Position numbers and translations under genes: made by a program. From Dehalococcoidia bacterium (lineage in GTDB: Bacteria; Chloroflexota; Dehalococcoidia; Lucifugimonadales; HRBIN23), in the NCBI GenBank assembly GCA_025060295.1, contig JANXCH010000007.1:1-64000 (forward strand): a DNA stretch of 64,000 bases, written 5' to 3'. Each line of letters begins with the position of its first letter. Positions within the stretch are counted from its first letter, which is position 1. Shown here one piece after another: positions 51,191-60,608 of this stretch. The notes below the pieces were generated by a model. The model searched no databases. It saw nothing but the letters and a program-made list of their open reading frames with translations, and was not told the origin of the DNA.

Positions 51191-51586
51191 CTACCCACCC
51201 CTCCTGTACTCGCGCAAGAGGTGCTCTGCCCGCTCTAACAAAGCCAAGGGGCTGAAGGGCTTGGCGAAGAAGGCATTCCCCCCCGCCCCATAGACCTGTA
51301 ACTCGGCACCCGGGTCTGCCCAAGCGGTTATCACAATCACGGGCACCCGCCCCAGCACGGGATCCTGGCGCAGCGCACGGGTAAGAGCCAAACCGTCCAT
51401 ACGGGGCATGCGCAGATCGGTGATGACCAAGTGGGGGCGTATGTGGTAGGCCATCTCCAGGGCTTTTTGGCCGTCCCGCGCCAGGTGCACCTCAAACGGG
51501 CCCCCCGAGAAAGTCAGGGCCAACAGGTCGCGCAGGTCTTCCTGGTCCTCCACGATGAGGATGCGCCAGACCCCCGATGCGTCCAT
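51191..51586 (-). CDS. Single-domain response regulator
   Basis: A 131-residue receiver: WRILIVEDQEDLRDLLALTF (acidic pocket), phospho-Asp in LVITDLRMPRMDG, the Thr/Ala of VIVITAWAD, and Lys of NAFFAKPF. No output domain is present. The start ATG at 51586 has GGGGGGA seven bases upstream; in-frame starts at 51610 (ATG) and 51673 (GTG) could add an N-terminal piece. No histidine kinase is nearby. It could relay a signal to another protein by contact. Confidence 0.88.
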   Translation of the reverse strand: MDASGVWRILIVEDQEDLRDLLALTFSGGPFEVHLARDGQKALEMAYHIRPHLVITDLRMPRMDGLALTRALRQDPVLGRVPVIVITAWADPGAELQVYGAGGNAFFAKPFSPLALLERAEHLLREYRRGG

Positions 51587-51780
51587 CAGACCATCCCCCC
51601 CGAAGGGCATAGACAGGGCACCGGGAGTGTGGCTGTCCAGGATAACCGTTCGCAGCAGGGCATCATCGCTCACCTTTGCCCCCTGGTGCAGGATCCCGTC
51701 TTTTTCCTTATCATAGTCCTCACCAGGGGTGCCCCAGACTCCGTACAAACCCCCAACTTCCCTGAGGGGAAAGGAGCGTC

Positions 51781-52209
51781 GTGATTCGCTTGACCGAGGA
51801 GATGCGGGAGGCCATCAACCCCGCCCTGGCCCGAGGCATGCCCTGCCTGCTCATCACGGCGTGGCAGGATGGGTGGCCCGCCGCCGGCTTCCGGGGGAGC
51901 ATGATGGTCTATGACGAGGAGCACCTGGCCTATTGGGAACGCACCCACGGGCGGGAGTTGGCCGCCCTGCGCCAGAACCCCCGGGTGCTGGTCATTTTTC
52001 GCGACCCCGTCAAACGCATTGGCTGGAAGTTCTACGGCACCGCCACGGTGCACGAGGCCGGGCCGGTGCGGGAAGCGGTGCTGGCCCGCACCGTGCCCGA
52101 GGAACTGGAACGCGACCCCGAGCGGAAGGGGGTGGCCGTCCTGATACGGGTGGACCGGATCACGACCCTGGGGGGACGGGTTGTGCAAGAGCGGGAGCCT
52201 GGGGCGTAA
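51781..52209 (+). CDS. Pyridoxamine 5'-phosphate oxidase family protein
   Basis: A 142-residue split-barrel flavin/F420-binding protein: MPCLLITAWQDGWPAAGFRGSMMVY, LAYWERTHGRELAALRQNPRVLVIFRDP and a final VAVLIRVDRITTLGGR. PPOX-fold members bind FMN, heme or F420. The substrate is unknown. Start GTG with AAGGAG four bases upstream. Its last 50 bases overlap the 3' end of the convergent acyl-CoA synthetase gene, an unusual depth of overlap. Confidence 0.82.
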   Translation: MIRLTEEMREAINPALARGMPCLLITAWQDGWPAAGFRGSMMVYDEEHLAYWERTHGRELAALRQNPRVLVIFRDPVKRIGWKFYGTATVHEAGPVREAVLARTVPEELERDPERKGVAVLIRVDRITTLGGRVVQEREPGA

Positions 52210-57757: not shown

Positions 57758-59287
57758 ATGATACCCCTTGTGTTGCTCGTCCTTGCCGTCCTAGCGGCCA
57801 TGGGGATAGGAGTTGTCGGCGGCTATCTTGTGCACAAGGCCCGCGCCGACCGACGCCTGGCCGAGGCGGAGGCCCGGCTCCAGGAGGTCCAGCGCCAGGC
57901 CCAAGAGGAGCATAAGCGCCTTCTGCTGGAGGCCAAGGAGGAGGCCCTCAAAGCGCGGGCAGCAGCAGAGGCCGACCTACGGGAGCAACGGCGGGAGCTC
58001 CAACGCCTGGAGGCCCGCCTTAACAACCGGGAGGAGGCCTTGGAGCGGCGGGCGGAGGTGTTGGAGCGACGGGAGCGCGCTGTGGCCCACAAGGAGAAGG
58101 AGGTGGAGCAAGCCCTGGCGCACGCCGAGGAAGCCAAGGCTCAATATCTCAAGCAGTTGGAAAGCCTGGCGGGCCTGTCGGTGGACGAGGCACGCACCCT
58201 ACTTCTGAAACGGGTGGAGGCCGAGGCCGAAAGTGATATCGCCCGCCGCCTCTGGGAATTGGAGCAGCAGTTCCACGAGGAGGCCAACGAGAAGGCCCGC
58301 CGCATCATCGCTCAGGCTATCCACCGCCTTGCTGCTGATGTCACCGCCGAATCCACCGTAACCGTGATCCCTATCCCCAGCGAAGAGATGAAGGGCCGTC
58401 TCATCGGCCGCGAAGGACGGAACATCCGGGCCATTGAGCAGGCCACGGGTGTGGACCTCATCATCGACGACACCCCCGACGCCGTCACCATCTCCTGCTT
58501 TGACCCCGTGCGGCGGGAGGTGGCCCGCATCGCCTTGCAGAAGCTGATTCAGGATGGGCGCATCCACCCCGCCCGCATTGAGGAGACGGTGGCCCTGGCC
58601 CGGCAAGAGGTGGAGGAGACCATCCGCCAGGCGGGGCAGCAGGCCTTGTTCGCCGTGGGGGTGGGTGGTCTGCATCCCGAACTGGTACGCCTGCTGGGGG
58701 TGCTCCACTACCGCACCAGTTACGGCCAAAATGTCCTCAAGCACAGCATAGAGGTGGCCCTCCTGGCCAGTATGATGGGCGCGGAGATCGGCGCCCATGT
58801 GGAGACCTGCAAGGTGGGGGGGCTTCTGCACGACATCGGTAAGGCCCTCACCCACGAACAGGAGGGCCCCCACGCCGAAATCGGTGCCGAGGTGGCGGCC
58901 AAATATGGCGTCCCCGAACCAGTGCGCCGCGCCATCTTGGAGCATCACAACGACCAGCCCAGTTCGGTGGAGGCTTTCCTGGTGGCCGCCGCCGATGCCA
59001 TCAGCGCCTCCCGCCCCGGGGCCCGCAAGGACACCCTGGAGCACTATGTCAAACGCCTGGAGGCGCTGGAAGCCGTAGCCTCCTCCTTCCCCGGCGTGGA
59101 GAAGTGCTACGCCATCCAGGCCGGGCGCGAGGTGCGGGTAATGGTCAAACCCCAGGAGGTGGACGATATCGGGGCCACCAAACTGGCCCGGGACATCTCC
59201 AAGAAGATCCAAGAGACCGTCGTCTACCCCGGCCAGGTGAAGGTGGTGGTCATTCGGGAGACGCGGGCGGTGGAATACGCCCGCTAG
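57758..59287 (+). CDS. rny: Ribonuclease Y
   Basis: A 509-residue RNase Y. The N-terminal membrane anchor is [24 protein letters not shown], then a long coiled coil (residues 25-190), a KH domain ([30 protein letters not shown]) and an HD domain ([37 protein letters not shown]). It is the main membrane-linked endoribonuclease that begins mRNA decay in bacteria without RNase E. Its stop overlaps prmA by four bases, and its terminator lies inside prmA. Confidence 0.97.
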
Positions 59288-60192
59288 CGTTTACCTGCGT
59301 CGGGCCCACACTCCATCCTTCGGGGCAGGGAGGTGCCTCCCTGCCCCGTGCTTTTTTCCGACGGACGCCCCGTCCGCATGGCCACCCACTCCCCCTCCCG
59401 ACGCACCTGGGGCGGAGGGAAACCCACACCTCCCAGGGCGTGTGCCACCTCCTCCTGCTGCTCCTGGAGGATGCCGCTGGCCAGGAGCCAGCCCCCAGGA
59501 TACAGCGCCTCCCACAGGGCAGCAGCCAAACGGCACACCACCTTGGCAGAGATGTTGGCCACAATGCCGTGGAACTGCCCCCCCTCACGCCACGGCAGGC
59601 TCCCCCTCTGCACCCGCACGCAACCCGACAGACCATTGAGGCGCACATTGGCCCGCGCCGCACGCACCGCCATCGCATCAATATCCAAACCCACTACCCG
59701 CTCCGCCCCCAGCAGACCCGCCGCAATGGCGAGAATCCCCGAGCCCGTCCCCAAGTCCAGAATGCGCCGGCCAGCGACGGGCAACTCCTGCATCCACGCC
59801 AGGCAGAGACGGGTAGTGGGGTGGTGGCCTGTGCCAAAGGCCAAGCCGGGCTCCAAGCTCAGCACCAAGTCGCCCGGCTGGGGGGTATGGGTTTCCCACA
59901 CAGGGCGCACCACGATCCGCCCCACCCGCACAATTTGGAACCCCTCCTTCCACACTTTCTCCCACTGGGCCTGCTCCACCAGACGCTCCGCCAAAGGGGG
60001 CAGGGGTGTAATAAGGGAGAGGAGGCGCCATGCAGTATCCAGACGGGCGCGCCGTCGGGGGAGGGTCCTATCGGCAGGGAGGTAGGCACGGAGGGTGAGG
60101 GGGGCGTGAGGCGGGGGGGACTCCCCCTCATCGGGGTTCCAGCCCCCCTCCTGCTCCACGCAGGTGCGGGCGCCCACTCGCCCGAAAGCCAC
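59284..60192 (-). CDS. prmA: Ribosomal protein L11 methyltransferase PrmA
   Basis: A methyltransferase with the SAM motif [40 protein letters not shown], the PrmA pre-motif [23 protein letters not shown] and [13 protein letters not shown]. It trimethylates ribosomal protein L11. The first canonical codon (GTG 60192) gives 302 residues, but WVEFSLTVSPELVDPLL, the usual PrmA N-terminus, is encoded upstream of it. The only matching start is an ATT at 60255, with GAGAGGAAAGG ahead, 16 bases after acpP. The true protein is probably 323 residues. The last 25 residues ([19 protein letters not shown]) cover the rny terminator. Confidence 0.93.
59321..59357 (+). terminator. Terminator of rny, inside prmA coding sequence
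   Basis: CGGGGCAGGGAGG, TG, CCTCCCTGCCCCG (13 pairs) then TGCTTTTTT. A strong intrinsic terminator, 33 bases after the rny stop. The same bases encode part of the PrmA tail on the other strand. Confidence 0.9.
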
Positions 60193-60271
60193 AAGCAGAG
60201 GGTCTACCAGTTCAGGAGAAACAGTCAGGGAGAACTCTACCCACCGGCGGGGAATGGGCGCGCCTTTCCTC

Positions 60272-60535
60272 TCAGGGGGTATCCTTGATGCCCTTAGCCT
60301 TCAGGAAGTTCACCGCATCCTGGACGGTGATAATCTTCTCCGCCTCCTGGTCGGAGATCTCTATCTTCTGTCCGTCCTTGCTGAACTCCTCCTCCATAGC
60401 CATAATCAGTTCCACCAGGTCTAGGGAGTCGGCCTTCAAATCATCCCGGAAAGAGGCTTCGGGGCGCACCTGGGCCTCGTCCACGCCCAGGCGGTCTACC
60501 ACGATTTGCTTCACACGGGTGTAGACATCGGGCAT
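60272..60535 (-). CDS. acpP: Acyl carrier protein
   Basis: An 87-residue ACP with the phosphopantetheine serine at residue 37 ([19 protein letters not shown]), an acidic helix II, and [32 protein letters not shown]. It carries growing fatty-acyl chains. ATG 60535 has GGAGGTGA six bases upstream; a GTG at 60541 is closer to the site and less likely. It lies between nusB and prmA in a leftward operon with fabD. Confidence 0.95.
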
Positions 60536-60608
60536 GGGCACTCACCTCCGTGCGTCGTATCTGTGGTCAAGCCTCGGGTATATGCGGAATGGCCGGTGCA
60601 CGCCTCTG

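Follow-up and report, generated by a model that had tools for sequence, protein, structure and literature searches.

A probable AUU start codon in the ribosomal protein L11 methyltransferase gene prmA of a Dehalococcoidia genus

The gene prmA, which encodes the ribosomal protein L11 methyltransferase, is probably translated from an AUU codon in the genus of this Dehalococcoidia bacterium. The codon lies at 60255-60253 on the minus strand of the window, the whole 64,000-nt stretch of DNA that was analysed, and comparison of the sequences gives this reading a probability of roughly 0.85. A Shine-Dalgarno-like sequence that overlaps the stop codon of the upstream gene acpP would position a ribosome on the AUU, in many cases probably the one that has completed translation of acpP, and the initiator fMet-tRNA on the AUU would start full-length PrmA. 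The first-pass annotation had proposed a start at this ATT, and the proposal stands: the ATT and the Shine-Dalgarno-like sequence are kept in a sister species, the homology to PrmA extends to the N-terminus, a usable canonical start is absent, and the bases upstream of the ATT are predicted to pair with 16S rRNA.

Gene identity and genomic setting of prmA

Read from the ATT, prmA (59284-60255, minus strand) encodes 323 amino acids, and residues 5-294 correspond to positions 2-292 of the 296 positions of Pfam PF06325 (E=4e-65), a full-length profile match. The score against NCBIfam TIGR00406 (182.7 bits) is just below the cut-off of 183.15, and the orthologue from Bacterium HR23 reaches 190.5 bits. 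The genome holds one copy of prmA, which is the final member of the minus-strand gene order duf177(YceD)-rpmF-fabD-nusB-acpP-prmA. The upstream gene acpP (60272-60535, minus strand; Pfam PF00550) encodes acyl carrier protein and most likely starts at the ATG at 60535, 8 nt 3´ of GGAGGT; the ORF lister gave the GTG at 60541 instead. Extra residues were observed at the C-terminus of AcpP in both genomes of the genus (60272-60282 here; L031:5972-5985 in Bacterium HR23). At its other end, prmA is convergent with the gene for RNase Y (57758-59287, plus strand), and the prmA 3´ end and the RNase Y stop codon overlap by 4 bases. The intrinsic terminator of the RNase Y gene (stem at 59321-59348, with a T-run on the plus strand only) lies within the 3´ end of prmA (59284-59350). 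The PF06325 match excludes the last ~29 residues of PrmA, and both the hairpin and the tail are similar in Bacterium HR23.

The place of prmA behind acpP is particular to the genus. In most other relatives, prmA lies close behind a dnaJ-like gene, which was verified by Pfam in three of them and, in the rest, identified by visual inspection of the ORF upstream. The dnaJ-type genes of the present genome are located on contigs C11 and C6, whereas prmA is on contig C7, which indicates that the place of prmA is derived in the genus. The AUU start goes with this derived place, and it probably arose when prmA left its usual position behind dnaJ for the one behind acpP.

The ATT codon and its conservation

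The TGA stop codon of acpP occupies 60274-60272 (minus strand) and is separated from the ATT by 16 bases, which agrees with the placement of the ATT at 60253-60255 in the first-pass annotation. The open prmA frame extends from 60300 to 59284. Upstream of the ATT it contains 15 open codons and no ATG, GTG or TTG, and downstream the first canonical codon is the GTG at 60192-60190, codon 22. The PrmA N-terminus IPRRWVEFSLTVSPELV is encoded from the ATT, which supplies the first I of this reading. That an N-terminus typical of PrmA precedes the first ATG, GTG or TTG, as had been claimed, was thus borne out, because the PF06325 match begins at residue 5. When the product is instead read from the GTG, the highest-scoring part of the match does not start before profile position 87. 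A run of ~36 codons that lacks a canonical start is by itself not rare, with an estimated frequency of ~1 in 4 in a random frame at 66% GC. What goes beyond chance is the conserved protein sequence ahead of any canonical codon, together with the same ATT, spacer and Shine-Dalgarno-like sequence in a second species.

The second species, Bacterium HR23 (contig BEHZ01000076.1), supplied the one further genome of the genus that was compared. Its prmA has an ATT at the same place (L002/L031), and the 16-base spacer between acpP and the ATT, GAGGAAAGGCGCGCCC in the present genome and GGGGAAAGGCCCGCCC in Bacterium HR23, is identical at 14 of the 16 positions. The two PrmA proteins share ~70% identity, compared with 85-96% for the products of fabD, nusB and acpP, and the two prmA genes differ along their whole length at 25%, 17% and 43% of first, second and third codon positions. 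The spacer and the ATT are therefore more conserved than the third positions of prmA. In codons 2-21, one, two and seven differences fall at first, second and third positions, respectively. This is the pattern of translated sequence, which suggests that translation begins before these codons. The first canonical in-frame codon is codon 22 here and codon 17 in Bacterium HR23, and the first one shared by the two species is codon 27. Since the ATT is found in these two genomes only, it counts as one evolutionary event.

Comparison of the start region in relatives, which the first-pass annotation had suggested as a check, places the start at the same point. In the other relatives of the same order, ATG, GTG or TTG occurs at an offset of -4 to +2 codons from the ATT position in 28/28 cases, and three of them (L005, L010 and L019) have ATG exactly at this position. 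A W-x-E-x-S motif is common to most relatives and present in both species of the genus; its tryptophan is at most 8 codons from the start across the 28 relatives. In G002, the only other genome of the family that was compared (82% complete), no prmA match was found. G002, G013, G022 and G030 lack a convincing PrmA, with either no match or weak methyltransferase matches, which suggests repeated loss or incomplete assemblies.

Among the 63 ORFs of the window that were compared with Bacterium HR23, prmA alone lacks a plausible canonical start once the automatic flags had been inspected, and no general use of odd starts was seen. The other flags reflect alignments that run into overlapping or conserved upstream DNA, and the inspected ones have canonical starts, as exemplified by a response regulator flagged at 51206-51787. 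Two other non-canonical codons in the prmA frame were considered and rejected as starts because they are not conserved: an ATA inside acpP (60282-60280) is ACA in Bacterium HR23, and a CTG at codon 10 is CTT.

The prmA ATT is preceded by the Shine-Dalgarno-like sequence GAGGAAAGG. The longer element GAGAGGAAAGG (60263-60273, minus strand) overlaps the acpP stop codon, and its AAAGG ends 7 nt 5´ of the ATT. In this genome, the 16S gene has GGATCACCTCCTTTCT at its 3´ end, and the pairing was predicted with the tail CACCUCCUUUCU. The predicted duplex of the bases upstream of the ATT with this tail has an energy of -10.3 kcal/mol (-9.5 kcal/mol in Bacterium HR23), comparable with the duplexes predicted for nusB (-7.6), fabD (-9.5) and acpP (-13.8 kcal/mol, at its likely ATG start) in the same operon. 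Random sites of the window pair as strongly with the 16S tail in ~8% of cases (12% for Bacterium HR23), so that the pairing is supporting evidence and not proof. In both species, a small hairpin (GGAA...UUCC) encloses the Shine-Dalgarno-like sequence and the AUU. As a candidate regulatory hairpin it was rejected: its folding energy of -4.8 kcal/mol is no better than that of shuffled sequence (z 0.5), and the value in Bacterium HR23 is modest (-11.8 kcal/mol, z -1.7).

Alternative explanations of the prmA start

An ordinary GTG further into the gene, at codon 22 in the present genome, at codon 17 in that of Bacterium HR23 or at codon 27 in both, would yield a shortened PrmA. Such a start would begin with a codon acceptable to gene finders and leave the catalytic domain in place. 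The GTG codons 22 and 17, however, do not coincide between the two species; the GTG at 60192-60190 is replaced by CAC in Bacterium HR23 and its predicted duplex with the 16S tail is -2.9 kcal/mol, at the strong end of the range for the GTG alternatives (-1.1 to -2.9 kcal/mol). Moreover, codons 2-16 precede all of the GTGs and encode an amino acid sequence that the two species conserve, the W-x-E-x-S motif included. A GTG is thus rejected as the main start, and the shortened protein is regarded as very unlikely. The assembly that contains the window is a draft in 23 contigs, and the ATT might be a misread ATG or other canonical codon. That another species, assembled independently and also as a draft, has the identical ATT argues against this possibility and, together with the 14 shared spacer bases and the similar 16S pairing, makes a sequencing error not credible; the chance of one is close to nil. 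The first-pass annotation had set an ATG at another aligned position in relatives, combined with such an error, against the ATT, but the ATG of the relatives, at the aligned codon or near it, supports the position of the start.

A different route to PrmA would pass through acpP itself. If the ribosome slipped by +1 at the acpP CCC_UGA onto CCU and continued via GAG AGG AAA, PrmA would be made only as an AcpP-PrmA fusion, with the ATT as an internal Ile codon. In both species, prmA is read in exactly the +1 frame relative to acpP, no stop codon interrupts that frame between CCC_UGA and the ATT, and acpP ends with ACC CCC TGA; CCC TGA is absent from the other 28 of the 30 acpP loci examined. This ending and the position of prmA behind acpP are both specific to the genus, however, and may go back to one rearrangement. 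Both differences in the spacer (AGG/GGG and GCG/CCG) fall at first codon positions of the prmA frame, a pattern unlike that of codons 2-21 and of coding sequence, but two differences are too few for a firm reading. We know of no fusion of an acyl carrier protein with PrmA. CCC_UGA is a known +1 site, with 15% frameshifting in E. coli pheL and a further case in the Listeria phage gene tsh, but many E. coli genes end with CCC_UGA and leave the site unused (PMC5009743). The end of acpP resembles pheL and tsh in its CCC_UGA and in the +1 frame downstream; it differs from them in that PrmA could be reached more simply, through a Shine-Dalgarno-like sequence, conserved in both species, and a start codon spaced for initiation. 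Because these two elements account for the data more simply, and because the spacer differences are not at third positions, an obligatory fusion is given only a slim chance, and the milder version, in which a programmed +1 shift would deliver part or all of PrmA as a fusion and the AUU would be an additional, weak entry point, an equally small one. If true, an AcpP-PrmA fusion would link fatty acid synthesis with an enzyme that methylates a ribosomal protein.

Initiation at the AUU, the favoured reading, also has a stronger form in which the codon is a regulatory device, such that the level of IF3 would set the amount of PrmA and hence the methylation of L11. In E. coli, non-canonical starts are repressed by IF3, and so is the GTC start of Streptomyces sigR, with a physiological effect (PMC5472188); infC of the present genome also apparently has a non-canonical start. 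The two genomes show no sign of selection for regulation, though, and the faster divergence of prmA and the missing prmA match in G002 fit relaxed constraint, with the AUU as a weak start that is tolerated, equally well. The regulatory form is considered unlikely.

Known non-canonical starts and expected PrmA output

The ATT start of prmA adds a case to a kind of start that is known but seldom found. Confirmed starts other than ATG, GTG and TTG are few outside infC. AUU starts are established for E. coli infC and pcnB (PMC9410913) and for S. aureus cvfC1 (PMC13009471). In a published reconstruction, a switch to AUU was counted once among 61,358 ancestral AUG starts and once among 5,080 GUG starts (PMC5622118), which marks AUU starts as very rare and counts against the ATT reading. 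A literature search returned no paper in which the phrase 'non-canonical start codon' occurs alongside 'ribosomal protein L11 methyltransferase'.

Non-canonical starts are already in use in the lineage, as infC indicates. The infC gene of this genome (L034) has ATC at the conserved start position, and the closest canonical codon upstream lies at a distance of 29 codons. Across the order, at least 20 of 30 infC loci contain no ATG, GTG or TTG between the preceding stop codon and the conserved region and have ATA, ATT or ATC at the start. The analogy with infC that was drawn in the first-pass annotation is apt in this respect: infC (AUU/AUC/AUA) and prmA share a non-canonical AUN start behind a Shine-Dalgarno sequence, and initiation on infC is weakened by IF3 in the species tested. 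The autoregulation of infC, whose product is IF3 itself, does not carry over. PrmA is a methyltransferase and not an initiation factor, so that at most control by IF3 in trans might apply.

Closer parallels are genes that do not encode initiation factors. E. coli pcnB is such a gene with an AUU start, which limits its expression according to Binns and Masters (2002), as cited in PMC9410913 and PMC13009471. Unlike the prmA start, which is proposed from sequence, the pcnB start was shown experimentally, in another gene and another lineage. S. aureus cvfC1 (AUU) and ccpN (AUA) likewise have conserved non-canonical starts, with a strong Shine-Dalgarno sequence and a reporter output of ~10% of that from AUG; in contrast to prmA, these starts were proved by ribosome profiling and reporters, and that of ccpN is conserved between S. 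aureus and B. subtilis (PMC13009471). Streptomyces sigR, also not an initiation factor gene, has a non-canonical start on which IF3 acts in trans, but its codon is GTC and the control by IF3 has been demonstrated (PMC5472188).

In other bacteria, AUU initiates weakly and is disfavoured by IF3, and the output of PrmA per mRNA is therefore expected to be well below that of acpP. Taken together, the ~10% of AUG output in S. aureus and the repression by IF3 in E. coli and Streptomyces lead to the expectation that PrmA output may be both low and IF3-sensitive, and an expression of prmA of this type is plausible.

The ATT start sits in the gene for a ribosomal-protein methyltransferase and is conserved between two species. 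Gene finders that accept three start codons would cut ~21 residues off PrmA, and comparison of starts across related draft genomes can reveal non-canonical starts of this kind. If the IF3 sensitivity is true, the level of an initiation factor would be linked to the methylation of ribosomal protein L11.
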